Below, in pieces: positions 7,470 to 25,193 of a stretch of DNA of 50,943 bases (positions within the stretch are counted from its first letter, which is position 1; every line of letters begins with the position of its first letter). The DNA is from a virus. The translations under genes and the position numbers were made by a program. Location of the stretch: positions 1 through 50,943 of IMG/VR virus record IMGVR_UViG_3300029309_000066. One strand, given 5' to 3'. The notes below the pieces were generated by a model, which saw only the letters and a list, made by a program, of their open reading frames with translations, was not told the origin of the DNA and made no database searches.

Positions 7470-8359
7470 TATGTGCCCTCATTTATATTATTTAACGCAC
7501 CAAACCCATTAATGTCAAAAAATTCTTTGACTTCATCTATATATTTTTGTGCATTTGGGTCTTGTGTAGGCTTTACTAAATCTCTTAGTGAGCCTCCATC
7601 TTTACTAAAATAAAAATTACTGTATATTTTTTCTAAATCTTCTGGGTTTTTTACTTCTTCTTCTGCAATACTTTTAACCACACTGGCATTCATACTTTTT
7701 AAATTCATAGGTTTATTGTTACTAAATCCCTCAGTTGATAATACTTTTGGTTGTATGCCAGATACATCTGCTATAATTTCATCTTGTGCATTTAACATGC
7801 CTTTTGTAAATTTTGCAGGGTTTGTAACTGTATCAAATCCACTTATTTTTGTTTGACCAATACCTTTTTCTTTAATTTTTTTATTAACATTTCTAGTAAT
7901 TCTGTCCTCATATGATGGTAAATAACCTGCTATTTTATCTCTTGGCACATCATATTTCAGCAAAAAAGAATTGTCTTCCATACTACTTTTACCTTCAGTG
8001 AGATAATTATGTAATGGAAAAACTTTATCTTTATCTAGTAGACCAGATACAAACTGTTCATCACCTATACGCATGGCTTCTGGTTTATTTGTAATAATTC
8101 TATATATTGAAACAAAATCATCATAGCCTTTATCGTCTAATGCTTTATTACTTATATTTTGGAACTCAGTATCATCAATTAATTTTTTGGCAAGTTCTTC
8201 TCTAGCAACAGATTTTTGAGGTGAACCACTAATTAAAGGTTGTATAACATAACCAGATATTAATTCTTCTGTATTAAATTCATCAAAATATGTAGGTACA
8301 TTTTCTAATTTGGCTCTTAATGATTTTAAAAGGATTTTAACTGCTGGTGTTATTTTCAT
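7469..8359 (-). CDS. Hypothetical protein in polyvalent-protein gene cluster (296 aa)
   Basis: A soluble mixed alpha/beta protein. The segment around residues 80-125 (FVSIYRIITNKPEAM..GDEQFVSG) resembles the beginning of ADP-ribosyltransferase-like or polyvalent-associated domains that carry a YR motif, but the rest of such a fold is not evident. It overlaps the 2OG oxygenase by four bases (ATGA) and follows the 985-aa polyvalent-type protein in the operon. A virion-associated effector is a reasonable inference; uncertain. Confidence 0.5.
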   Translation of the reverse strand: MKITPAVKILLKSLRAKLENVPTYFDEFNTEELISGYVIQPLISGSPQKSVAREELAKKLIDDTEFQNISNKALDDKGYDDFVSIYRIITNKPEAMRIGDEQFVSGLLDKDKVFPLHNYLTEGKSSMEDNSFLLKYDVPRDKIAGYLPSYEDRITRNVNKKIKEKGIGQTKISGFDTVTNPAKFTKGMLNAQDEIIADVSGIQPKVLSTEGFSNNKPMNLKSMNASVVKSIAEEEVKNPEDLEKIYSNFYFSKDGGSLRDLVKPTQDPNAQKYIDEVKEFFDINGFGALNNINEGT

Positions 8360-9084
8360 CTAAATGGTGCTCCTAAAACCCAACAAACCAAAGAATGTCT
8401 TTTACCTTTCGTTACAGGTGTAACTTGATGATACCAAAAAGATGGAAAAACAACTATTGAGCCTTGTGGTCTTATTTCTTTACATTCATAAAGTCTGTTA
8501 CTGTGTTGGTGGTCTCCCCAATCAAATTTTAGGTTACCACCTTCATAATCTTCTGGTTTACTTAAATTCATAGTTAAACTTAATTTTCTAATCTTTCCTA
8601 CCAAATCATCATTAGTGGTATAATATTTTTCTTTACCTTTTATTTTTTTTTCATCTGGTACATTTTTTAAATAAGCAGATTTATGACAACCGCCACAATC
8701 TCTATGCCAACCATAGAAGCCACCATTTTGATATGTTGTAAATTGTAAATCTTCTGCACTTTCAAAATCATAGTTCCAACCAGCCTTTTCATTTGCCTCT
8801 ACAACAAAAGGATATATTCTATTGTATATCCAAACATCATTTAGCCAAGATATAGAACTATCACGAACCAATGGGTTTATTTCATCAATATTTTTTCCTA
8901 GTTCTTTTTGTAATTGTTGTGTGGTTTTATCTGCTTGTTGAATTTGTTTATTGGCACCTTTATGTTCTAAATTCATAGTTTCTGCTTCTTCTGGCTCTTT
9001 ACTTAAACCTAAACTAATAATTTTATCACATTCATCACTTGTTAAAGCAGATGGGAATACGTAAAATGGTGTTTCAATATACAT
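8356..9084 (-). CDS. 2-oxoglutarate/Fe(II) oxygenase, prolyl-4-hydroxylase type
   Basis: 242 aa with the double-stranded beta-helix signature: iron ligands H127 and D129 in GFYGWHRDCGG, distal H219 in FPSFWYHQVTP and the 2-oxoglutarate-binding R229 in KRHSL. The N-terminus FYVFPSALTSDECDKI is typical of P4H-like phage proteins. The extra cysteines (DCGGC, 129-133) beside the metal site are unusual. Expected reaction: hydroxylation of a protein, peptide or nucleic-acid substrate with CO2 and succinate release. It lies directly downstream of the 985-aa protein (one-base overlap), which or whose partners may be the substrate; that is inference. Confidence 0.85.
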   Translation of the reverse strand: MYIETPFYVFPSALTSDECDKIISLGLSKEPEEAETMNLEHKGANKQIQQADKTTQQLQKELGKNIDEINPLVRDSSISWLNDVWIYNRIYPFVVEANEKAGWNYDFESAEDLQFTTYQNGGFYGWHRDCGGCHKSAYLKNVPDEKKIKGKEKYYTTNDDLVGKIRKLSLTMNLSKPEDYEGGNLKFDWGDHQHSNRLYECKEIRPQGSIVVFPSFWYHQVTPVTKGKRHSLVCWVLGAPFR

Positions 9085-12041
9085 TACAAAGCCTCATCTT
9101 GTATTATATCTTCTTCACTACCTAGTAATTTTGATGTAATAGCACCTGCCAGACCTGTCGCAACTATTGGTGTATATAAAGAAACACCACTATTAACATA
9201 ATCTTTAACATCTGGTGTAAGATATATGGTAGGTGAATCTTTAATAAATCCACCATTTGTTTTAATTGTCTCATTTTTATCTAATACATCAATAAAATCA
9301 AAATCCTCTGGTAGATTATTGCTATCATCTAATCTGTTATTATTATATCTATCTAAAAATAATTCGTCAGAAAATATTGTTTTATTTTCAACTGTTGCAT
9401 CTGTGCCTTTTAATAAATTTTTGGCTACTTTTGGTATAATAACATCATAGTATTGTGTTAACTCAGGTTGGTTCCATCTTTTGTCATGTATTTTACCAGA
9501 AGAAAATGAAATACCATCATAATCATTATCTACTGCATGTTTCATCAATCTTTTAATACCTAATTCTGTAAATCTTTCTGAACTGCCAATAAAAGGTGCA
9601 GATGGTATTGATGAAACTGGATTAAGTTTTACTTCAAAAGCATCTGCCTTTTCTAATTTAGCCTCAAGATTACTTAAATTTTTTAATACATCATCTATTT
9701 TTGTTATATCATAATCAAAACTTGCAACTTCTTCTTGTATTCTTGGGTTTCTTAATTGAGAATCATATATTAAATCTTCGTAAAATCTTACTTCTGCTTT
9801 TTCTGTTCGCAATTCTATAAATTGTTTTTTTGAAATTACCTCTTGTTCTTCTAATGGAAATTTAGCTGGAATCTTTTTAAGTTCTAACTCTTTGCCTCTT
9901 GTAGAAAGGTAATGACTTTTTAGTTGGTCTATTGCATTTTTAGATAAATATAAATCATCTTCATCTTTTCTTTGTGAAAGAGGTACATCTCGCAAATTCT
10001 CTGGTATACCTAAGTCATCAGCAATTTCTGGGTAACCACTTATGTCTTGATTATAATAAAAATCAGCAACTTCTTTTTTGATATCATTATCAAGTTTATC
10101 TAGTTTTTCTTGTGGTAAAATGTTTCTAATTAACTTTTTATTGAACTCGTTAATCTCTGGTTTAGTTATTTTAGTATTTCTATCTGCAAAACCTTTTAAC
10201 CATTTATTATATTCTTTTGTATAATAATCATTAAATACTTTTTTCTTAATTCTGCCAATTTTTTGTGTAATATAACTTGTATCAACATAATCAGATACAT
10301 CAGTATATAGATTATCTGGTATAACCATATTTCTATCTTCTAATGTTGCATTATCTATTAGTGATGCATTATTTTTATCAATACCTGCATTAGAAAGACG
10401 CTGAACAGACTTTTCTTTTACAGGTAAAAATTTATATTTAGTCATTTTTTGTTTAATAATTTCTTCAATCGGTTTTGCCTTTTGGAATAGTCTTGCTATT
10501 TGTTCTTCTCTTTCAAAGCCAAAATCATTTAATGCAACTTCAAATACATTGTTAAAATCTGATTTAAATTCAACATATGTATCTCCAAGAGGCATCTTAT
10601 TAGATTCAATTCGTGAACCTTTAACAGCAGTTAGAGTATCAATATTAGTTGTATCTTTTAATTTTTGTATGTCATCTAATATATCGCCAAAAATGACTGG
10701 GTTATTTTTATTTATAAATGCTTTCTTTTCTTTTAAACCCATAACAAGGCCTTTTTTTCTACCTTGTTGTGCCATATCTGATTGTAATTCTTCTACATAC
10801 AATATCTTTTTACCATCGCTATCTACTCTATCTTTGGTACGAGCAAATACAATCACATTTTTTTCAGCACCAGTATGCGCAAAATTCTTATAGTCTTTTT
10901 TTAATAATTCTAACTGATTATCTTTATTAATTCTAATTTGTCTTGGACCTACATTTGTATCAATTGTTATAGGGTCGCCTTGTTTTAATGTTAAAAATGC
11001 TTCACTATCTATGGTTACATCAGATGGACTTCCTGTTATAAAAGGCAACCTTATATTATAAACACCAGAAATATCAGATGTAAAAGCATCTTTCCAATCA
11101 GATATAACGGTTTCAACCATATCTGGTGGTTCTGGCATTGTTAATAATATCTCATTATAATTATCACCACCGGGCAAAGTGTATTGTTCATGTTTTGGTA
11201 ATAAATCCTTAGTGGTTTTTTTACCTACAAATTGTTCGTCGTAAATTTCTCTACGTAATTGATTTAATTGTAATATTGCCTCATTTAAATTAGGTTGTAG
11301 ACCAAGACCAGTGTTTGTTTTACCATCTACAAGTATTTCATATCCATATTTATTATTTCCTTGAATACCAAATACTGAGTCTATATTTACATTTGGTTGT
11401 TCGGCATCATCTCTAAATTCTATATTAATATAATTATCTGTTTCAAAAGTGTCTGTATCTGGTTGTGCCTTTTTCTGAATGTCTTGAAAATCTTGACTCA
11501 TATCACCAAATTTAACTACCGAAATATTTGGTTCTTCCATATATCCCAACATATCTGGGTTGTATTGTTTCATGTAATCTTTAACAATACTGGTATTACC
11601 TTGTGTAACTTGTTCTGCTAAATCAGTAAAAGAATAAAGACGTGGCTTTTTAGTAATCCTACTTGTAAGTTCAAAATTCATATTTTTAAAATCTTGAAAA
11701 ATGTCTATTTGACCTGCCTCTAAAGCTTTTGCTTCGTTTTTAATAACCTCATTAACCCTTGTTTTATTATCTATTAAATATTCTTTTAGTTCTTGTGATG
11801 TTACTCTAGGTGATGTTGCAAAGGCATCTTCCATACCTGTAAATAACATTTCTTCTTTAACACCTTTTCCACCAATTTTTTCCATTTGAGTAAACATTTG
11901 TTCTGGTGTACCTTTTTTCTGTTGCATTATATCTAATACTTTTTCAGTAGGCGAGAACATGCCTAAATCGTCTAATACACCAAATTTCTGACCGAACTTA
12001 AATATTTGTTTTAATATTGGTTTTACAGGCAATTTAGCCAT
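9084..12041 (-). CDS. Large polyvalent-type protein (985 aa)
   Basis: The longest gene of the window. The N-terminus carries GTPEQMFTQMEKIGGKGVKEE and LFTGMEDAF, followed by SQELKEYLIDN, a module I know from large phage polyvalent proteins. A central YVEELQSDMAQQGRKKG motif (about residue 415-430) is the hallmark of the large-polyvalent-protein-associated domain, and the C-terminal YDGISFSSGKIHDKRW ... YYDVIIPKVAK region (about 835-875) matches its usual ending. Only the last 30 residues are hydrophobic (VATGLAGAITSKLLG). Such proteins are packaged or injected in many phages. It sits between two 2OG oxygenase genes with single-base overlaps, suggesting a linked function. Confidence 0.7.
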   Translation of the reverse strand: MAKLPVKPILKQIFKFGQKFGVLDDLGMFSPTEKVLDIMQQKKGTPEQMFTQMEKIGGKGVKEEMLFTGMEDAFATSPRVTSQELKEYLIDNKTRVNEVIKNEAKALEAGQIDIFQDFKNMNFELTSRITKKPRLYSFTDLAEQVTQGNTSIVKDYMKQYNPDMLGYMEEPNISVVKFGDMSQDFQDIQKKAQPDTDTFETDNYINIEFRDDAEQPNVNIDSVFGIQGNNKYGYEILVDGKTNTGLGLQPNLNEAILQLNQLRREIYDEQFVGKKTTKDLLPKHEQYTLPGGDNYNEILLTMPEPPDMVETVISDWKDAFTSDISGVYNIRLPFITGSPSDVTIDSEAFLTLKQGDPITIDTNVGPRQIRINKDNQLELLKKDYKNFAHTGAEKNVIVFARTKDRVDSDGKKILYVEELQSDMAQQGRKKGLVMGLKEKKAFINKNNPVIFGDILDDIQKLKDTTNIDTLTAVKGSRIESNKMPLGDTYVEFKSDFNNVFEVALNDFGFEREEQIARLFQKAKPIEEIIKQKMTKYKFLPVKEKSVQRLSNAGIDKNNASLIDNATLEDRNMVIPDNLYTDVSDYVDTSYITQKIGRIKKKVFNDYYTKEYNKWLKGFADRNTKITKPEINEFNKKLIRNILPQEKLDKLDNDIKKEVADFYYNQDISGYPEIADDLGIPENLRDVPLSQRKDEDDLYLSKNAIDQLKSHYLSTRGKELELKKIPAKFPLEEQEVISKKQFIELRTEKAEVRFYEDLIYDSQLRNPRIQEEVASFDYDITKIDDVLKNLSNLEAKLEKADAFEVKLNPVSSIPSAPFIGSSERFTELGIKRLMKHAVDNDYDGISFSSGKIHDKRWNQPELTQYYDVIIPKVAKNLLKGTDATVENKTIFSDELFLDRYNNNRLDDSNNLPEDFDFIDVLDKNETIKTNGGFIKDSPTIYLTPDVKDYVNSGVSLYTPIVATGLAGAITSKLLGSEEDIIQDEAL

Positions 12042-12712
12042 TAGCCATTTTCCAAAAAATTACAAGTAAGATTGCAAGAAAAGCTTCTTCTTTCACCTTT
12101 TCCATAAAAAGGATAAACAGTATGTACCAAATTTGATGGGAATAAATATATTCTACCTACTTTTGGTTTTTGTAACCATTTTGCAGCGGTTAATACATCT
12201 GTTTGCCCATTTATAAAATCAATATAACCTTCAGTTGCATATTCTTCATGTGTATGTTTAAAATTTTTATCACCTATACTATCTGGCACCATTAGATACA
12301 ATACACATGATAATTGACAACTTGTATGTACATGACCGGGATTATAATCACCTTTAAAAGAACGAACAAACCATGCTCTATTTATGTGAACTGACTCTAA
12401 TTCTGCTACGTTTTCTACATTTTGCTCTTTATTAAATTCTTTAAAAAAGGCAGATGTTGCATTACTTATAAAATGACCAAAAGGTGCCAATGTCTCATCA
12501 TTTAAATCACAACTTAATTCTTCTTGCACATGACCTACAAGATAACCAGAAGCATCTTTTTCTTTTCTCTTTTTAGATTTTATTATTTTATCACAATGTA
12601 CATTAAATGCATCAACCCATTTTTGTGGAATATCTGCTGTAAGTATTCTTGGTCCAAACGGTCTATTTACAAACACCTCAACATTAAAATCGTTATTTTC
12701 TTCTTTAGACAT
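12041..12712 (-). CDS. Putative 2-oxoglutarate/Fe(II) oxygenase (TIGR02466-like)
   Basis: 223 aa. The region NPGHVHTSCQLSCVLYLMVP (H127, H129) and the later VGRIYLFPSNLVHTVYPF (H197) with RRSFSCNLTC (R208/R209) match the family of putative 2OG oxygenases common in marine phages and alphaproteobacteria, where the first motif is H-x-H rather than the classical H-x-D. The acidic third ligand is therefore not obvious and activity needs proof. The last base overlaps the start of the 985-aa protein. Substrate unknown. Confidence 0.75.
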   Translation of the reverse strand: MSKEENNDFNVEVFVNRPFGPRILTADIPQKWVDAFNVHCDKIIKSKKRKEKDASGYLVGHVQEELSCDLNDETLAPFGHFISNATSAFFKEFNKEQNVENVAELESVHINRAWFVRSFKGDYNPGHVHTSCQLSCVLYLMVPDSIGDKNFKHTHEEYATEGYIDFINGQTDVLTAAKWLQKPKVGRIYLFPSNLVHTVYPFYGKGERRSFSCNLTCNFLENG

Positions 12713-15805: not shown

Positions 15806-18235
15806 TTAAACTCCTTTATCTAGTTGTTGTGCTAATTTTTTTTCACGAAGTATTGCTAATTCTCCCTCCATCTTTTTTAATTTTAGCATTAGTTCATTCT
15901 GTGTTTTGGCATTTTCTATGGCGATATCTTGTTTTGCTTCTGCATTTTTAATAGCCATATCTTGTTTTGCCTTTGCGCTTTCAATCTGTAATTCTAGTTG
16001 TGTTTTCATTTGTAGCATTTTTGCTTCAAATTGTGCTAGTTGTTCTGCAATCTTGAATTGACCTTGACCTTGTTGACCATAATTCATCAAGCCTTTTATT
16101 TGTTCCATCTGTGGTGATTGTTTAACAACCTCTGAGGCTCTTTGTGATATTTCCATATCAAGTTCTGGTGGTATATCATTAAATTTAAATTTAGGGTCAC
16201 GAACATCTGGTAATGGTGCTAAATCCATACCAATGGCTGATTTCATTCTTTGTCTGTATAACAATGCTATGTGTTCTGCAATATGTGCTATCAATACAGG
16301 TTGTAAACCTCTTGCACCCGGATTACCACCTAGTGATGGGTCTTGTAGAAATTGCATATGAACTAATATATGTGCATCGTGGTCTTGTTCTGGGAATGCT
16401 CTTATAGGTTTGCCATACATAACAGACATATTTTCATCTACTGGGTCAAGTCTTGATGCTTCTTGTGGCTTTTCTAATACCTCATCTATATTTGGTATTC
16501 TTATCGCCTCTAACATTCTTTTATGTGTTTCGTACTGGTCATAAAGCTGAGGTGCTGATTGCGATAACTGAAGTACAGATTGACCTTGTGCAATTCTCTG
16601 TGCTGTTGAAAATATATTTGGGTCTGATACTGGTACAATATCTATTGCATCATCAAAATCTTTTGCAAATATTTGTGCAGATACACCTGCTTGTGAGAAC
16701 GAAAATTCTTCTGGTAAAAACTTGGCATTTAATTTTGCCATCAATTTAAATTCTTGTCCCTGTGAATAATGTAGTCTTTTATGTATCGCAGAGAAAGATT
16801 TACTACCTTGTTCTATTAATGCAACTGTTGAACCTACTGGTGCATTTGGGTTTACATCACCAACATTTAAATCTGCAGTACTAGCAAATCTACGACCTGC
16901 ATCTACGATTGCATTCATCAAATTAAATAAAGTACCAGATGGCTCTTTAAATGGTAATGGCATTATCGCCTTATTAACATCATCAACTGTCGCATCTAAA
17001 TCAGCAAATTCACCGGGATTTACCTGTAATTCACCACCTGTAACACGACCTTTTAATTTAAAACCACCTTGCATATTTGAAAAAGCGGCAGAATCTAATA
17101 ATGCCCTTAATGAACCAGTCGCTGCTTTTCCAAGACCGCCTATTAAATGATACAGACCAAAACCATAAAAGCCTATTCCGGGTAAAAACCTATATGATAT
17201 AAAATAATCTTGCCTTAACTTCTTTTCGTCACTTTCGTCCCAGTTTCTTCTAATCGCTACAATCTTTTGACTATCATAATCTATTGTAACGACATACGGA
17301 AATGCAACCAAATCTTCATTTTCTTCTGTATCTGAATATCCATCTATGCCATCAAATGTTTCGTATACATGCATTTCAATCAATGTTACTGTTTCATTAT
17401 ATTCGTTATCTTCGTAACCCTCTACCCCTTCTATCTGTCCACCAATATCCGTTGATGGGTCTGCATCACCACCTATATATTTAATAGGTAAATAAAAACC
17501 ACCCTCTACATATCTGTTGTAGTCATTTCTAGGCATTGTAATTATATGTGAATATCTAATTGATGTTTGTAAATCTTTACTGTCTGGTGCGACTACAAAA
17601 TCTTCTGCCTTAACAAATTGTGAACATTGTCTACCTAAGTTTGTATCATAATATACTTTTTTAAAGGCATGACCAATTAGTGGTAATTGAAACAACATTG
17701 TATCTAAATCTGGAAAATACTCTGGCATCTCCTGTGTTATCTGATAGTTCATGTAATCACGAACTCGTCTTGCTTGGTCTTCTAATTCTTCGTTTGGTTC
17801 TCCAATAATAGTTGTCTTGACTGGTCCTCCAGAGGGATATAATTCTGCGATTGCCTTTGCATTAAATTGTGTAGCAGACTCTGCAATCATAGGGTGTACG
17901 ACAGTAGATAAACCTCTTGTTGCTCTTTGTTCTTCTTCTTCTGTTAGTCCACCATCTGGTTCAAGTGTCTGTAAACCTTGTTTGTATCTTTCTTCCCATT
18001 CACTTCTTGCCTCTTTATCACTTTCAAATGCTTCTAATAGGTGTTGTGCTTTTCTTGCAGATAAATTTTCGTCAAGTTCTTCTGCTATGTTTTCGTCATG
18101 TTCTGATGTTATTTCTACAACTTCATCTAGTGATGCATCACCAATTAAAACATCTTCGTTATCTATCTGTTCAACCTCTAGGTTATCTGCAGGTTTTCCC
18201 TCTGAAAAAGGTACAACATTTGGTTCTCTAGCCAT
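15806..18235 (-). CDS. Portal protein
   Basis: 809 aa, following terminase and one oxygenase gene. Characteristic segments are the clamp-type N-terminal region (VVHPMIAESATQFNAKAIAEL, YPSGGPVKT), the MFQLPLIGHAFKKVYYD block and a glycine-containing stem region, as in the long portals of P22/N4-like podoviruses. The last 75 residues are a coiled coil built on 11-residue repeats (AKAKQDMAIKN, AEAKQDIAIEN), like the barrel of P22 gp1. Forms the dodecameric DNA entry pore and terminase dock. Very acidic N-terminal 60 residues. Confidence 0.88.
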   Translation of the reverse strand: MAREPNVVPFSEGKPADNLEVEQIDNEDVLIGDASLDEVVEITSEHDENIAEELDENLSARKAQHLLEAFESDKEARSEWEERYKQGLQTLEPDGGLTEEEEQRATRGLSTVVHPMIAESATQFNAKAIAELYPSGGPVKTTIIGEPNEELEDQARRVRDYMNYQITQEMPEYFPDLDTMLFQLPLIGHAFKKVYYDTNLGRQCSQFVKAEDFVVAPDSKDLQTSIRYSHIITMPRNDYNRYVEGGFYLPIKYIGGDADPSTDIGGQIEGVEGYEDNEYNETVTLIEMHVYETFDGIDGYSDTEENEDLVAFPYVVTIDYDSQKIVAIRRNWDESDEKKLRQDYFISYRFLPGIGFYGFGLYHLIGGLGKAATGSLRALLDSAAFSNMQGGFKLKGRVTGGELQVNPGEFADLDATVDDVNKAIMPLPFKEPSGTLFNLMNAIVDAGRRFASTADLNVGDVNPNAPVGSTVALIEQGSKSFSAIHKRLHYSQGQEFKLMAKLNAKFLPEEFSFSQAGVSAQIFAKDFDDAIDIVPVSDPNIFSTAQRIAQGQSVLQLSQSAPQLYDQYETHKRMLEAIRIPNIDEVLEKPQEASRLDPVDENMSVMYGKPIRAFPEQDHDAHILVHMQFLQDPSLGGNPGARGLQPVLIAHIAEHIALLYRQRMKSAIGMDLAPLPDVRDPKFKFNDIPPELDMEISQRASEVVKQSPQMEQIKGLMNYGQQGQGQFKIAEQLAQFEAKMLQMKTQLELQIESAKAKQDMAIKNAEAKQDIAIENAKTQNELMLKLKKMEGELAILREKKLAQQLDKGV

Positions 18236-18881
18236 ATTTCTTCCTTAATGATTGTATTTCATTATTTAAATTATTTATTTCATCTTCAGCAATACGATAT
18301 ACTGTTTTAACATTAGCATGATTAACCCAACCTGTAACAATGTATTTTTCGTATTCAGATACAACGCCTCTATGTGTATGTGTAAAATCTGTTGGCCATA
18401 TTAATGATAAACCTTTTTTGGCTTGTATCTTAACATTTGGATAAAATTTAAATTCTGTACCACCTCCATCTGGTATATCATTTAAATATGTCATAAATAC
18501 CAAAGACCTTTGATGTGTTTGTTGTGTATCTCTTTCGCAATGCCATTTTTTAAAACCACCACCAGATGGATAATGTTGAATATTAAATGGCTCGTTAATT
18601 TCAATTATATGGTAAGCTTCTGGATATTTTTTAAAATATTTTTCTAAGGCACCTGTTATACAACTCAAATACTGATTTATTATTTCATTATTTGTATTTG
18701 GTAATATTGTTAAATCTATACCTTGTTTTACATCTGGAGACCAACCAGAATCAGATGCATCAATTTTATTATATTTAGTATTTTTATAATAATTAATCAA
18801 ATCGTTACAAAGATTATGCGATATTTGAAAAGGCATAATAAAGTTTTCAACATTATTTTTTACAATCTCTAAATCAGCCAT
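18228..18881 (-). CDS. 2-oxoglutarate/Fe(II) oxygenase between terminase and portal genes
   Basis: 217 aa, P4H-like. Metal ligands are H114 and E116 (KKWHCERD, the Glu variant of H-x-D), distal H168 or H170 in DFTHTHRG, and the likely co-substrate-binding K179 (EKYIVTGW). RSLVFMTYLND and GGGTEFKFYPN are the usual beta strands between them. It overlaps both TerL and portal by eight bases, so it is embedded in the packaging operon. Substrate unknown; a virion protein or a soluble target are both possible. Confidence 0.82.
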   Translation of the reverse strand: MADLEIVKNNVENFIMPFQISHNLCNDLINYYKNTKYNKIDASDSGWSPDVKQGIDLTILPNTNNEIINQYLSCITGALEKYFKKYPEAYHIIEINEPFNIQHYPSGGGFKKWHCERDTQQTHQRSLVFMTYLNDIPDGGGTEFKFYPNVKIQAKKGLSLIWPTDFTHTHRGVVSEYEKYIVTGWVNHANVKTVYRIAEDEINNLNNEIQSLRKKYG

Positions 18882-20379
18882 ATAATGTTAATCGCTTTCT
18901 TTCTGTTAACTCATCTTCCTCATAGTCTGTAGTATGAGTGATAAACCAACCTTTTCTCAACCTTAACCATGCTTGAGTACATGTGTCAACTATATCATCA
19001 TTATCACCAGTTGGAAAGGCAGAACATATATCTATAAGGTTTTTAGCCCACTTTTTACCTGCAGGATAGAATATGCGACCATCTTCTAATAATGCAGAAC
19101 AGGCATGTGCTCTAGCTTCTTTATCTCTATCTGGCATATATTCTAAAACTGGTACACCTGCCATTCTTAAATCTTGTAATAGACTTTGTCCACTTGCCTT
19201 TTTCTCTATTAAGACAACATCTGGCTCGTAATCTTCATATGCTTCTTGTGCTATTCGCCTGAGGTCAGGGTATGAAACCCTATCGTACCACATATCAATA
19301 ACGATAGCGTTATAATATCCATTTTGCTTAAATACTCCCCATGTTGTTCTTGCTGAATATGATGACTTCTCCTTTGTTGAAAAAGCTGTATCATATGATT
19401 GTATCAAATATTCAATGTTTGGCAAATCTTCTTCTAACCAAGGTTCCCACCAATCTGCCTTCAAAATACCACCACCTCTAGGCATTGGTCTTTGTTGTAA
19501 TTGACCAGAGGCACCATACGTACCTAAACTTCTTTCTAAATTATCTAATGTTCTACTATCTATTCTTTGTGGCCATAATAATTGACCTTCTTTTGTTCTT
19601 GGGTCTTTAAATCTTAATGTACTTTTTACTGGTGTAGGGTGGTTTGCCTCATATTTGGCAGGTAAACATAGATGGTCCCAATCTTCAAATTCATTTGCCA
19701 GTATATGACCTGTTAAATCATTCTCATGTACTCTTTGCATAATTACAATAAATGCACCATTCTTTGGGTCGTTTAATCTTGTTTGCATTGCTTGGTCCCA
19801 CCATTCAAGTACTGATGTTCTAACTGCACCAGATTCTGCTTCTCTTACATTATGTGGGTCATCTATTATAATTATATCACCACCCTCACCAGTTAAAGCG
19901 CCATCAACTGATGTGGCGATTCGCATACCTGTTTTATCATTTTCAAATCGTTGTTTTTGGTTCTGGTCTGTTGTTAATTGAAACTGATTACCAAATGTAT
20001 CTTTATACCAAGAACTATCTATTAATCGTCTACATTTAACACTGTCTCTAATTGATAACATCAAGGCATATGATGCAAATAAGAATTTTTTTGTTGGGTC
20101 TATTGTCCATGTCCATGCAGGTAATGCAACGGATACAGATATAGACTTCATGTGTCTAGGTGGAATATTAATAATTAGTCTTTTAATATCTCCGTTTACG
20201 ACTGCCTGTAAGTGTTCTGCGATTGCATCAATATGCCAATTATCATTATAAATTCTATTTGGCTCTATTGTCGGCCATGCTTCTTTTATGAACAATTTTA
20301 GGGAGCGTCTCATCTTCTCCGCCCTCACTTGGTTCAACGACAGCGTATTTAAGTGCTCTTTCAATAGTGTTGAGTTCAT
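18874..20379 (-). CDS. terL: Terminase large subunit
   Basis: 501 aa. ATPase: Walker A PPRHMKS at 73-79, Walker B IIIIDD at 169-174. Nuclease: RNase H-like acidic residues in QSYDTAFS, VVLIEKKASG and DDIVDTCTQA near the C-terminus. This matches the phage TerL group with a C-terminal TIGR01630-type domain. It packages DNA into the procapsid through the portal. It overlaps TerS by 125 bases; an alternative ATG at 20313 has a better ribosome site (GAGGGCGGAG), but the residues before it (LSLNQVRAEKMRRSL) look like genuine TerL N-terminus, so the longer start is kept. Confidence 0.93.
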   Translation of the reverse strand: MNSTLLKEHLNTLSLNQVRAEKMRRSLKLFIKEAWPTIEPNRIYNDNWHIDAIAEHLQAVVNGDIKRLIINIPPRHMKSISVSVALPAWTWTIDPTKKFLFASYALMLSIRDSVKCRRLIDSSWYKDTFGNQFQLTTDQNQKQRFENDKTGMRIATSVDGALTGEGGDIIIIDDPHNVREAESGAVRTSVLEWWDQAMQTRLNDPKNGAFIVIMQRVHENDLTGHILANEFEDWDHLCLPAKYEANHPTPVKSTLRFKDPRTKEGQLLWPQRIDSRTLDNLERSLGTYGASGQLQQRPMPRGGGILKADWWEPWLEEDLPNIEYLIQSYDTAFSTKEKSSYSARTTWGVFKQNGYYNAIVIDMWYDRVSYPDLRRIAQEAYEDYEPDVVLIEKKASGQSLLQDLRMAGVPVLEYMPDRDKEARAHACSALLEDGRIFYPAGKKWAKNLIDICSAFPTGDNDDIVDTCTQAWLRLRKGWFITHTTDYEEDELTERKRLTLYG

Positions 20380-20761
20380 TATCTGATAGCTTACTTAAAT
20401 CAAGTACCTTTCTCTCTTCTATGTTAATATCTTGTGTTATCTCTTGTTTATCTGTTTGCCCTAATATTTGTTTGCCAAGCCAAATCGCCATTGTGGCATT
20501 ATTGCTTTCGTCCATAATTTGTATTTGTTTTCTTCTTAATGATAATTTACCACTGGCTCTGCCTTTATCTATTGCTTTTCTTACTTCTGGTTCGTGTGTA
20601 TACTTGTGTTCTAATGTTCTTAAAGGCACATCAAAAAACAAAGCGATTTCTTCCATGGTACAGTTTAGTGTGCTTAGTCTTTCTAATTCTACTAAGTTTA
20701 ATTCTATTTTTGGCCTACCTTTTGGTTTTTTTGGTGCTTTTATCTTTTTAATTTCATTCAT
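20255..20761 (-). CDS. terS: Terminase small subunit (putative)
   Basis: 168 aa, directly upstream of and overlapping TerL. A basic N-terminus (KKIKAPKKPKGRPK) precedes a helix-turn-helix (CTMEEIALFFDVPLRTLEHKY) of the type used by small terminase subunits to recognise the packaging site; then helices with KLSLRRKQIQIMDESNNATM and GKQILGQTD that I associate with TerS-like proteins. The C-terminal half is acidic. The large overlap with TerL suggests coupled translation. Confidence 0.75.
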   Translation of the reverse strand: MNEIKKIKAPKKPKGRPKIELNLVELERLSTLNCTMEEIALFFDVPLRTLEHKYTHEPEVRKAIDKGRASGKLSLRRKQIQIMDESNNATMAIWLGKQILGQTDKQEITQDINIEERKVLDLSKLSDNELNTIERALKYAVVEPSEGGEDETLPKIVHKRSMADNRAK

Positions 20762-20787: not shown

Positions 20788-21669
20788 TTAATCTGCAATC
20801 TTTTTGAGCCTCAAACCATAGTTATTTACACCTTTTTTAGGTTTATAATCATCACGAAATATAAGTTTATTTTCTCTTTTAAATTTATTGTAGTTAACAT
20901 AATGATGATGTCTACCATACCTCCACACAAGCTTTGTTACATCTGGGTGTAATCGCATCTGCATATTAGATTTAGGAATAGTACCTTCTTCAGCATAGAA
21001 CTCATCTGTATTACCACCTTTAAGTGTTTGTGTATTAGCCTTTTCTTGTAAGAACACATTAAATTGTACTGTACACCAACCTTTCTTAAGTATTCTTAAA
21101 GATAAGTCAGTATCTTCGTTGTATCTTGCTCTCCATCTCTCAGCCAAAGGTAAATCGTTTCTAATTAAATTGCATGAATATATCCTTGTATTAACTGTGA
21201 AAGGTCCATATTGATGTGCCCATTTATCTATTACAAAGAATGTGTAATTAGGTCCTGCCATGCCAATATTTTTATATCTCAGTACAAAATCTTCCATCAC
21301 TTTAAATGGTGTGCCATCTATACATTTAATCTCTAGGTTATTTTGCCATCTTCTAAAACATTTGATGTTATCGTCCATAACCCAATGCCATTTATAACCT
21401 CTATCTATAGAATGTTGCCATATAAAGTTTCTAGCAGGTCCCGGTCCCTTAGATTTTCTATCGCCTAAGTCGTCACAAGTATCGTAATCGTCTTGATATG
21501 TCTTATCTAACACGAGTATATTTTTCTTCGCCACCACCTTCGCATACTCTGAGTACTCTTGTTCTTCAACAACAACTGTATATGGAACACCCATTTCTTC
21601 TAATGCTTTAATAGTTAATCTAGTATCTGCTCTGCCTTTAGATGGTATATAGATGGGGAATTGGTGCAT
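20788..21669 (-). CDS. TET-associated-type glycosyltransferase (TAGT)
   Basis: About 293 aa. Begins MHQFPIYIPSKGRADTRLTI, has a DDN metal site at residues 99-101 (HWVMDDNIKCF), and the strongly conserved NEDTDLSLR, ILKKGWCTVQF and LKGGNTDEFY motifs plus a YGRHHHYVNY end. I recognise this as the phage glycosyltransferase family described next to TET/JBP oxygenases and proposed to glycosylate hydroxylated DNA bases. It follows a ParB-like gene and a 2OG oxygenase in one operon. Alternative TTG starts (21681 with GGAG, 21693) exist. No base methyltransferase accompanies it here. Confidence 0.82.
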   Translation of the reverse strand: MHQFPIYIPSKGRADTRLTIKALEEMGVPYTVVVEEQEYSEYAKVVAKKNILVLDKTYQDDYDTCDDLGDRKSKGPGPARNFIWQHSIDRGYKWHWVMDDNIKCFRRWQNNLEIKCIDGTPFKVMEDFVLRYKNIGMAGPNYTFFVIDKWAHQYGPFTVNTRIYSCNLIRNDLPLAERWRARYNEDTDLSLRILKKGWCTVQFNVFLQEKANTQTLKGGNTDEFYAEEGTIPKSNMQMRLHPDVTKLVWRYGRHHHYVNYNKFKRENKLIFRDDYKPKKGVNNYGLRLKKIAD

Positions 21670-21682
21670 ATGGTTTGACAAA

Positions 21683-22222
21683 TCAATCTCCAATATTTGT
21701 TGTGCTTGCTGTATGTAAATCTTTTCTTAAATCGTAAGCAAAATTTTTATATTTTCCATCTGCATTTACATAATGTAAAAAAACATGCGAACTATATTTC
21801 ATGGGGCAAGGGTTTCTATAATGTATTTGTTCTATGCCTTTATACATAACACCTTCACCAATTCTTAATTCATAAGGTTTTTCATCTATAAAAATTTCCC
21901 AAGGTTTCTCTGGTTCAGCGCAATCTAATAAAATTGATACACTGTACTCGCAAGCCTCTCTATCCACATGTTTTACTATGCCAGAACCTTTATAATATTT
22001 TCTAAAATAAGAATATGTTGGAATTAATTTAACACCAGATAAACCTTCTAATTCTGGTTTTAAAAGTAGTAACAAAGTTTCAAATACATCATCTGCATAT
22101 ACTCCCATAGAATATCCCTCAGAATTTTCATTTGCTGTCTTATCTCTTTTTGCAAGTACATTTGTATGTAAACTTAAAAGGCTTAATAATGCATCTGGTA
22201 TATGAAATACAGGGTTATTCAC
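21683..22222 (-). CDS. 2-oxoglutarate/Fe(II) oxygenase next to the glycosyltransferase
   Basis: 179 aa, starting at GTG 22222, which overlaps the upstream stop; GAGG lies nine bases before. Ligands H85 and D87 in GIVKHVDREACEYSVSILL and distal H134 in YKGIEQIHYRNPCP are clear. The DREACEYS block and the ending HVFLHYV are typical of oxygenases in marine phages and bacteria. It is shorter than P4H proteins and not clearly a TET/JBP member. Its place between ParB-like protein and TAGT suggests it prepares the hydroxyl group the glycosyltransferase uses; that link is inference. Confidence 0.8.
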   Translation of the reverse strand: MNNPVFHIPDALLSLLSLHTNVLAKRDKTANENSEGYSMGVYADDVFETLLLLLKPELEGLSGVKLIPTYSYFRKYYKGSGIVKHVDREACEYSVSILLDCAEPEKPWEIFIDEKPYELRIGEGVMYKGIEQIHYRNPCPMKYSSHVFLHYVNADGKYKNFAYDLRKDLHTASTTNIGD

Positions 22223-22466
22223 TTAATATAGCCTCATTTTTCTTAATAAATTTTAATATATATTCTTTTCTTAATTTCTGTTTTCCCTCTCTAAGAATTT
22301 GATAAATTTTCTTTTTACCTTCAGACTTTGCTCGTAATCCCATATAATGTATTGCTGATATTTTCATTTGGTGAGAACTTGAATTGTTTTTTATCTTTTC
22401 AATGTATTCTTTTGCATTTTTTATGCTTTTTCTAGCATTAGCATTTATTTCATATGTATCGTCCAT
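22215..22466 (-). CDS. Small basic protein between ParB-like and oxygenase genes (83 aa)
   Basis: The best start is the ATG at 22466, two bases after the ParB-like stop. A basic helical protein (NARKSIKNAKEYIEKIKN; GKKKIYQILREGKQKLRKEYILKFIKK). Coupled by overlap to the 2OG oxygenase. Could be a DNA-binding accessory of the modification cassette, which is inference from charge and position. No family recognised. Confidence 0.6.
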   Translation of the reverse strand: MDDTYEINANARKSIKNAKEYIEKIKNNSSSHQMKISAIHYMGLRAKSEGKKKIYQILREGKQKLRKEYILKFIKKNEAILSE

Positions 22467-22467
22467 T

Positions 22468-23091
22468 TTATGCACCAAATGCCTTATCTTTTATTACATT
22501 CTTTTCTATCTTTGGATACCAAATATATTTTGTTTTATCTGTATAATCTTGTTTTATTAATTGAAAGAATTTGTCCATAGATTCTTTGTTAACAAAATTT
22601 ATAGTTAGTGATTTATAAGGCGATTGGTCTTCATGGTCAAAGCTTGGCATATCCTGCCAATGTTCTTCAGTATCTAACCAATCCCTTGAATTATGGTCTG
22701 GTTGAAAAACAATTGTTTCCAGTTCTTGTTGGTCGAAGCCTAGATTATCTAAATCAAAACCTAAATCACTCAACATATCCATTTCAAATTTAAGTAACTC
22801 ATAATCCCAAGTACTATCTTCGGACAATCTATTATCTGCTATTCTATATGCCTGTACTTGTTCTTCTTTCATATCATGTGCAACATGAACTGGTACTTTT
22901 TTCATTTTAAGATACTCAGCACCCATTAATCTCGTATGCCCCACAATTACTACATAGTCTTTATCAACGACAATAGGTTGTCTCCAGCCATATTTTTCTA
23001 GTGATTTGGCTATTTTTTCTGCGTTTTGATTTTTTCGAGGATTATTTTCGTAAGGTTTTATCTTTTTAATATCTATCATTTCTACTTTCAT
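22468..23091 (-). CDS. ParB-like nuclease/CTPase-fold protein
   Basis: 207 aa. The N-terminal ParB domain is clear: KIKPYENNPRKN, EKIAKSLEKYGWRQPIVVD, VIVGHTRLMGAEYL (GHTR at 51-54), VPVHVAHDMKEEQVQAYRIADNRL. The C-terminal 90 residues carry a separate domain (YKSLTINFVNKESMDKFF, TKYIWYP). Phage ParB-like proteins of this type are not chromosome segregators; they commonly neighbour DNA methylases, TAGTs and other DNA-modifying genes, as here. Likely a DNA-acting enzyme or targeting factor for the modification cassette. Confidence 0.82.
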   Translation of the reverse strand: MKVEMIDIKKIKPYENNPRKNQNAEKIAKSLEKYGWRQPIVVDKDYVVIVGHTRLMGAEYLKMKKVPVHVAHDMKEEQVQAYRIADNRLSEDSTWDYELLKFEMDMLSDLGFDLDNLGFDQQELETIVFQPDHNSRDWLDTEEHWQDMPSFDHEDQSPYKSLTINFVNKESMDKFFQLIKQDYTDKTKYIWYPKIEKNVIKDKAFGA

Positions 23092-23328: not shown

Positions 23329-23473
23329 ATTTAGATAACCTTTTACAATTACATTTTGATTTAAATACATATCTCCAAAATGGGAACCAAACATATTCAT
23401 TACATTTTCCACATTGAAGTGATTTATTATATGGAGGTTTGATATTTACAGTATATTTGATTGCCTTACTCAT
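23321..23473 (-). CDS. 50-aa zinc-ribbon-like mini-protein
   Basis: Starts with an ATG overlapping the stop of the primase-helicase gene (ATGAGTAA) and stops on the start of the 75-aa gene. Cysteines C21, C24 and C41, C43 (CxxC ... CxC) form a probable zinc knuckle around an aromatic segment (YVWFPFWRYVF). Too short for a 60-aa cut-off but fixed by both overlaps. Probably a nucleic-acid or protein-binding accessory of the replication gene beside it; inferred. Confidence 0.72.
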   Translation of the reverse strand: MSKAIKYTVNIKPPYNKSLQCGKCNEYVWFPFWRYVFKSKCNCKRLSKYE

Positions 23474-25193
23474 AACATCTAGTCCTGTAATTAAATGCAA
23501 ATTCTCTTTGCCCTATCTCACCATATACACCTTGTTCTCTAATTTTTCTTGTTATTATCTTTGTAGAATTGTTTTCAAAATCTCTATGGATTACCAATCC
23601 AACATCACACATATTAGCCCAATGTGCAGAACCACTGACTTGATATAGGTCTGGTGGTGGTATTATACCTGCATCGTTTCTATGTAATTTATGTGGGTGT
23701 GCAACCATAAATATAATTACATCATGGTTTCTTGCAAATTGTTGGCATTTAGCAATGATATCACGAATATGCTCATCTTCTCGTTTATTTCCCTCTCTGT
23801 CGGCAGAAATTTGATTAAAAGGGTCTATGACCAAACCTTTAATTCCATACCTTTGTTTAGAGGCTTTTGCCTTTTTAAGTATATAATCTATCGTAGGCAA
23901 ATCTTCATTCACTTCTAAAAACTTAAAATGTACATCTAAATAATCTAAACCTGCATTTAATTCTTCCTGTGTAATTCTTTCATAAACACCAATATCAAAT
24001 GGCTTTCTACATCTTTTTTCAAGCAATCTTCTTAAATGGTTTTTTGTAGAATGTTCTGGTGAATAAATTAAAAACTTCCAATTCTGTGATTCTGCCAAAT
24101 TCATTAATATTTGGTCAAGAAAATTACTTTTTCCATGATTAGGTATGCCTGTTATTAAATTAAATGTAGATGGCATAATTTTATATATTTCATCTAATTT
24201 ATCAAAACCAGTAGAAATAGCTCTTTGTACATTTCCATCATAGATATTTTGTATTTCGTCTTTATATTCTGATGCAGAATGCAAATCTTCTATTGGAAAT
24301 TCTTTTGCACCATAAATACATTCAAGTAATTTTTCTTTACCAAATGTTACAAGACATTCATTCGCATCTTTAATTTGCTTAAGTTCTTCAGATGAACTAT
24401 CGTTATACAAAGGAAAATGAACAACTTTACATATATCCCTGCCAAAACGATGCAACAACTCAAGTTTAAGGGAATTTCCTGCATCATCATTATCGGTCGC
24501 TATGATTACTTCTTCAGCATCAAATATCCATTCGCTTTGTTCAAACGCAGAAAATCTTTTATCTTGCAAATCAAACTTTGGTGTTTTAGGTGCACCATCT
24601 GGTAAACTGACAGCATTGGTAAAACCACATTCAACCATTGTTAAAACGTCCATCTCGCCTTCTACGAAGATTATTTGTTTCTTTATAGGTGTATCTTCAT
24701 TTTCAAGCCAATGTTTATATAAACCATCTATATTGTATAATGTCTTTAATGCATCTTTTGATTGATGAAATCTTTTATCTTTTGTTCTAAATTTTATATT
24801 TACAGTTTTTCCATCATGTAAGTAGGGAAAGCACAATTTCTCGTTTGATGTATATAATCCCATTTCTATTGCGATTTGTGTAGATATACCTCGTTTTTTA
24901 AGCCAATCTCTTGCTTCTTCAGATAATTTTTTATTGTCTGGCACAAAGGGTACAACATTTTCTTTCTTTGGCTCTTTCTTTACTACATAATCTTTTTTTT
25001 CCCTATCGTATACAGAGCCTTTCCAATCACAATGATGGCAATGCCAAACTGCAATATCATGTTCTACATTTATTGATAAACAAGGTTCTGTTGTATTTCT
25101 TCTTGTATGTGAACATTTGGGACAAACTGTTTTCGTCTGTCCATATCTTTCTATTCTAATACCTTCATTAAGTAATTGTTCTTTTATTTGCAT
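23466..25193 (-). CDS. Bifunctional primase-helicase (T7 gp4 / Twinkle type)
   Basis: 575 aa. Zinc-binding domain C24, C27, C52, C55 (CPKC ... CHHC); Toprim primase core with VEGEMD at 177-182 and ATDNDDAGN at 232-240; DnaB-type helicase with Walker A GIPNHGKS at 349-356, Walker B LVIDPFNQ (D457), and the VAHPHKLHR and QVSGSAHWANMCD motifs. Unwinds the fork and primes lagging-strand synthesis. Preceded by an initiator-like gene. Since no phage DNA polymerase is seen, it must cooperate with host replisome parts. Confidence 0.93.
   Translation of the reverse strand: MQIKEQLLNEGIRIERYGQTKTVCPKCSHTRRNTTEPCLSINVEHDIAVWHCHHCDWKGSVYDREKKDYVVKKEPKKENVVPFVPDNKKLSEEARDWLKKRGISTQIAIEMGLYTSNEKLCFPYLHDGKTVNIKFRTKDKRFHQSKDALKTLYNIDGLYKHWLENEDTPIKKQIIFVEGEMDVLTMVECGFTNAVSLPDGAPKTPKFDLQDKRFSAFEQSEWIFDAEEVIIATDNDDAGNSLKLELLHRFGRDICKVVHFPLYNDSSSEELKQIKDANECLVTFGKEKLLECIYGAKEFPIEDLHSASEYKDEIQNIYDGNVQRAISTGFDKLDEIYKIMPSTFNLITGIPNHGKSNFLDQILMNLAESQNWKFLIYSPEHSTKNHLRRLLEKRCRKPFDIGVYERITQEELNAGLDYLDVHFKFLEVNEDLPTIDYILKKAKASKQRYGIKGLVIDPFNQISADREGNKREDEHIRDIIAKCQQFARNHDVIIFMVAHPHKLHRNDAGIIPPPDLYQVSGSAHWANMCDVGLVIHRDFENNSTKIITRKIREQGVYGEIGQREFAFNYRTRCYE

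Follow-up and report, generated by a model that had tools for sequence, protein, structure and literature searches.

A solitary TAGT glycosyltransferase with a constant partner domain and a variable neighbouring gene slot: a candidate viral hypermodification module with an optional 2OG-Fe(II) oxygenase

The window analysed here, a marine phage contig from IMG/VR with 50,943 bases and 33% GC, in which a search for direct terminal repeats gave none, contains a TAGT glycosyltransferase gene in a compact four-gene cassette. Comparison of TAGT loci from viruses and bacteria indicates that the conserved unit is the TAGT together with a partner domain of about 60 aa, and that the gap between the ParB-like gene and the TAGT gene, occupied in the window by a 2OG-Fe(II) oxygenase, is a variable slot that takes different enzymes in different phages. 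We give roughly even odds to the view that the cassette encodes a hypermodification module built around a solitary TAGT, with DNA as the probable substrate, in which the oxygenase is an optional tailoring enzyme or cargo. On present evidence, the oxygenase is not the base-hydroxyl source of a TET-type pathway.

The cassette (20788-23091) consists of four minus-strand ORFs, all of them present as the initial annotation had described, tightly packed with short gaps or overlaps. Its position between replication and packaging genes was likewise borne out. The relevant features are as follows.

22468-23091, minus strand: ParB-like protein, 207 aa, with a ParB_N domain and a C-terminal TAGT-partner domain (PF02195, 3e-7; PHROG 620, 5e-48)
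22471-22692, minus strand: TAGT-partner domain, approximately residues 134-207 of the ParB-like protein (W..MP.F ... T.KTK.IW.P)
22215-22466, minus strand: 83-aa basic protein without known family, ATG at 22466
21683-22222, minus strand: 2OG-Fe(II) oxygenase, 179 aa, GTG start (phrog_2954, 6e-36; HxD...H motif; predicted model with pLDDT 93.9)
20788-21693, minus strand: TAGT glycosyltransferase, GT-A type (PF20691, 5e-42; PHROG 842, 1e-45)
23466-25193: primase/helicase, flanking the cassette on one side
20255-20761 and 18874-20379: terminase genes, flanking the cassette on the other side
18228-18881, minus strand: second 2OG-Fe(II) oxygenase, P4H-like (PF13640, 2e-10), among close relatives common only to contig L002

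The 83-aa ORF would be 87 aa long if it started at TTG 22478, and Pfam and PHROG searches with its product gave no convincing match. The oxygenase gene overlaps this preceding gene by 8 nt. The TAGT is 301 aa long when read from a TTG codon and 293 aa from ATG 21669, the likely start. Judged by the terminase at 18874-20379, the closest isolates are Roseobacter phages CRP-901 and CRP-902 (74%); a TAGT search of both gave no match, and neither ParB nor TAGT is annotated in CRP-901.

The TAGT matched PF20691 with 144.6 bits (cut-off 27.5) over profile positions 1-204 of 205, and its DDN (D107 D108 N109) and RYNED (R190-D194) motifs were invariant in an alignment of 17 sequences. By these sequence criteria the gene is a typical PF20691 family member, a genuine TAGT as had been proposed. 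Sequence searches of solved structures with the TAGT and oxygenase profiles produced no match. The ParB-like protein matched ParB_N (PF02195) with 30.8 bits against a cut-off of 26.3, and its proposed linkage to the TAGT held in relatives. A TAGT scan of viral contigs yielded 174 loci, 80 of which were kept; where near loci contained both genes, these were directly adjacent in 67 of 74 cases and separated by something else in seven. A ParB gene also lay upstream of the TAGT gene in 106 loci of a wider viral set (n = 232, with some contigs counted twice). A literature search for a link between ParB and glycosyltransferases found none. In Marivivens donghaensis a second TAGT-like protein is encoded directly upstream of the TAGT (L353:1743-3470), and relatives of this second protein occur at four other loci (L349, L350, L257 and L369).

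The partner domain occurs as the C-terminus of ParB-like proteins, as a separate gene of about 80 aa, or as the N-terminus of the TAGT itself, and viruses as well as bacterial genomes from many phyla show these arrangements. It was recognised in named phages, whose TAGTs are longer than that of the window and have an N-terminal domain resembling the C-terminal part of the window ParB-like protein. A tblastn search of phages with the C-terminal half of ParB found no match; profile searches did, placing the domain in fusion with the TAGT in seven named-phage proteins (hmmsearch 2e-15 to 2e-8; hhalign probability 99.1%). Among the 232 loci of the wider viral set, in which the repeated contigs are included, a ParB with the domain lay directly upstream of the TAGT in 105, one more had a split ParB, nine had the domain fused to the TAGT, and in one further case a single ORF joined ParB, domain and TAGT. 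Most of the remaining viral loci (about 90) had a separate domain ORF of about 80 aa overlapping the TAGT start. The bacterial-genome set comprised 47 TAGT loci, 43 of them not cut at a contig edge; 36 of these 43 showed an arrangement of this kind (22 ParB plus domain, eight domain alone, six fused). Fusion, adjacency and conservation thus point to the domain as a constant partner of the TAGT. Neither the domain nor its stand-alone copy matched a Pfam model at the curated cut-off, and the AlphaFold model of the domain was poor (pLDDT 56). TAGT genes were also seen in genomes of cultured bacteria, namely Erwinia, Pantoea stewartii, Chryseobacterium, Rhodovulum, Acidobacteriaceae KBS 96 and Marivivens (L334, L335, L339, L340, L341, L343, L353). 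Terminase genes downstream of the Erwinia TAGT genes suggest that these are prophages. Because cultured strains carry the module, among them Rhodovulum euryhalinum DSM 4868, Marivivens donghaensis KCTC 42776 and Chryseobacterium gambrini DSM 18014, its chemistry is directly testable.

Presence of the oxygenase in this arrangement is variable. Among near relatives, it was found in the slot only in the window, in one contig with full flanks (L002, the same as L083) and in a fragment (L082). Contig L003, a close relative of the window (ParB 96%, TAGT 95%, TerL 98%), keeps the 83-aa gene alone between ParB and TAGT, where L002 has the oxygenase and the 83-aa gene. L003 has neither the slot oxygenase nor the P4H-like gene at 18228, and the two thus behave as indel genes. 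The oxygenases of the window and L002 share 73% identity at a dN/dS of ~0.27, and in the same comparison the P4H-like gene has a dN/dS of 0.28; the values for TAGT (0.04), ParB (0.02) and TerL (0.04) indicate strong constraint. At other loci, the gap between ParB and TAGT held a 268-aa methyltransferase (L010-L012), FkbM methyltransferases (L058 and L073, and L254-L256 of the wider set) or a radical-SAM gene (L223), and in L364 a GT-like gene lay between the partner domain and the TAGT. Relatives of the 268-aa methyltransferase stand beside the TAGT in several lineages (L285/L286, L294, L301, L075, L192), and the Erwinia and Pantoea genomes have GT9-like and methyltransferase genes just upstream of the pair. 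The repeated presence of modification enzymes in the slot suggests a link of the oxygenase to the TAGT and argues that the slot serves to tailor a sugar product. The oxygenase would be one option of this kind, its own case coming from one sublineage.

The oxygenase had no Pfam match at E≤10. Its H85, D87 and H134 (HxD...H) were invariant in an alignment of 64 relatives, and its predicted model is a double-stranded beta-helix; motif and model together place it in the 2OG-Fe(II) superfamily. The best solved matches in a Foldseek search of the model include PHD2, P4H, PiuC, SnoN and BesD-type enzymes, and the top 50 PDB matches contained no TET or JBP. The candidate assignment to TET/JBP was rejected, with neither a profile match nor fold support. 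The oxygenase is neither the sole one of its kind, since the 51-kb window encodes four different 2OG-Fe(II) oxygenases (8356-9084, 12041-12712, 18228-18881 and 21683-22222), nor a constant cassette member, since relatives mostly lack it.

The protein belongs to a large marine-phage family (phrog_2954) usually annotated as "ferrochelatase"; among its viral matches are a cyanophage "ferrochelatase" and proteins annotated as prolyl hydroxylases, and relatives are encoded in at least 587 stretches of viral contigs. In the fetched flanks of the best 80 of these outside the cassette group, no TAGT or ParB was found (0 of 80), while 55 had a nearby 2OG oxygenase like that at 8356-9084 and 25 had one like that at 18228-18881, neighbours being judged mostly by similarity to window genes. 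In cyanophages and pelagiphages the relatives have other 2OG oxygenases around them, and the surroundings in cyanophages also include putative fibre-like genes. The "ferrochelatases" of phrog_2954/3531 (L094-L097) align with the oxygenase and keep the HxD...H motif. Sequence motif and predicted fold thus make the marine-phage "ferrochelatases" of this set likely 2OG-Fe(II) oxygenases. The "ferrochelatases" of PMC9599517 always adjoin 2OG oxygenases, which would be explained if they belong to the same phrog_2954/3531 family.

The absence of a methyltransferase from the window, as noted initially, was confirmed. A Pfam scan of the four cassette genes and of most of the larger ORFs outside the structural set, together with whole-contig searches with PF00145, PF00303 and PF12851, found no DNA methyltransferase, thymidylate synthase/hydroxymethylase or TET/JBP. 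A hidden methyltransferase or hydroxymethylase was thus searched for and discarded. PF00145 (C5-cytosine methyltransferase) was absent from the contig, and PF12851 gave no match at E≤1, although few controls match this model and its sensitivity to phage TETs is uncertain. All five of the large phage records checked had a thymidylate-synthase-family gene; none was found in the two smaller Vibrio phage records, the window or any of 21 other marine TAGT contigs. Across 50 further long TAGT contigs (30-198 kb), the thymidylate-synthase/hydroxymethylase family was found in none, TET/JBP in none (no control matched in that search) and a PF00145 match in five; most TAGT contigs are fragments, so such absence is no proof. 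The missing methyltransferase is thus usual in this TAGT clade and not an anomaly to be accounted for by the oxygenase. No detectable window gene accounts for an acceptor hydroxyl.

In the explanation that we favour, the TAGT would supply the catalytic GT-A domain and the C-terminal domain of the ParB-like protein would be its constant partner, while the ParB_N half probably brings the TAGT to phage DNA. The module would most likely add sugars to phage DNA between replication and packaging; T-even TAGT biochemistry, the ParB partners of other DNA-base enzymes and the gene position all point to this target. The ParB-TAGT gap would act as a tailoring slot whose enzyme differs from phage to phage, and the oxygenase most likely either acts on a module product, the attached sugar or some other, by oxidising it, or is passenger cargo. 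The cargo reading, in which the oxygenase is unrelated to the TAGT and acts on a protein or virion component, as the three other 2OG oxygenases presumably do, is a tenable one to which we assign appreciably less than an even chance. It accords with the number of 2OG oxygenases in the genome, with the shared presence of the 18228 and 21683 genes in the window and L002, their shared loss from L003 and their similar dN/dS (0.27-0.28), and with the company that cyanophage relatives keep. Insertion into a slot that repeatedly takes modification enzymes (methyltransferases, radical SAM, GT-like) speaks against it. The initial proposal of a TET-like step, in which the TAGT glycosylates a base first hydroxylated by the oxygenase (5mC made by the host, or thymine, which would lead to a base-J-like product), found no support, and we regard it as very improbable. 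The oxygenase does lie directly upstream of the TAGT with frames overlapping or nearly touching, and no other base-hydroxylating enzyme was found in the window. However, nearly all ParB-TAGT pairs lack the oxygenase, its relatives are not near TAGT genes, it evolves much faster than the TAGT, it has no PF12851 match, and its closest folds are PHD2/P4H-type hydroxylases of proteins and small molecules.

The target itself may be other than DNA. Since no recognised gene here makes a hydroxymethylated acceptor, the TAGT module could glycosylate a surface glycan or a protein of the phage or host, which is compatible with either reading of the oxygenase and which we consider somewhat unlikely. The lack of hydroxymethylase-family genes in the 50 long contigs and sugar-type neighbour enzymes such as FkbM and GT9-like proteins fit a non-DNA target; the ParB-type partner, the position between replication and packaging, the thymidylate-synthase-family genes of the large phages and the activity on DNA described for TAGTs in passages of PMC13216743 argue against it. 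A more far-reaching version of the DNA reading, to which we assign a low probability, is that a solitary TAGT with its partner domain glycosylates DNA without a known hydroxylated-base route, by a hidden hydroxylation step or by direct attachment to an unmodified base, with slot enzymes such as the oxygenase tailoring the sugar. If true, this would mean new modular DNA glycan modifications across viruses of many bacterial phyla.

TET-TAGT cassettes, a subject associated with Iyer 2013 and Burke 2021, reportedly place a TAGT near an Fe/2OG oxygenase, as is the case in the window. Unlike in those cassettes, the window oxygenase is optional and not of the TET/JBP type, and no C5-methyltransferase accompanies it. 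The cyanophage and pelagiphage "ferrochelatases" of phrog_2954/3531 share the family of the 179-aa oxygenase, but lie in 2OG-oxygenase clusters rather than beside a TAGT. The T6-type TAGT (beta-glucosyl-HMC-alpha-glucosyltransferase) belongs to the same catalytic family, PF20691, as that of the window; T-even phages also have a dCMP hydroxymethylase and an alpha- or beta-GT, whereas none of these was found in the window. In T-even phages TAGT adds sugars to DNA according to passages of PMC13216743. The partner domain is fused to the TAGT in Aeromonas phage 65, Kuja, PTm1 and POP12, while in the window it is carried by the ParB-like protein. ParBc proteins occur alongside the DNA cytosine carboxymethyltransferase CmoX (PMC12783734), and these loci resemble the window in that a phage ParB_N protein neighbours a DNA-base-modifying enzyme; the enzyme differs, however, and no CmoX-like PF00145 protein was found in the window. 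Some HTVC023P-type pelagiphages have a TAGT-type gene in a region with thymidylate synthase and a thymidine-hypermodification enzyme (PMC9599517). Solitary TAGT phages, like the window, have a TAGT without alpha-GT or beta-GT: passages of PMC13216743 report 288 such phages among 753 with TAGT. Solitary TAGTs are common and already in the literature, and these passages do not describe the ParB/partner-domain association or the variable slot. The partner domain, as yet without a Pfam model, its ParB link and the tailoring slot, all three apparently new, can now be named for solitary TAGTs.
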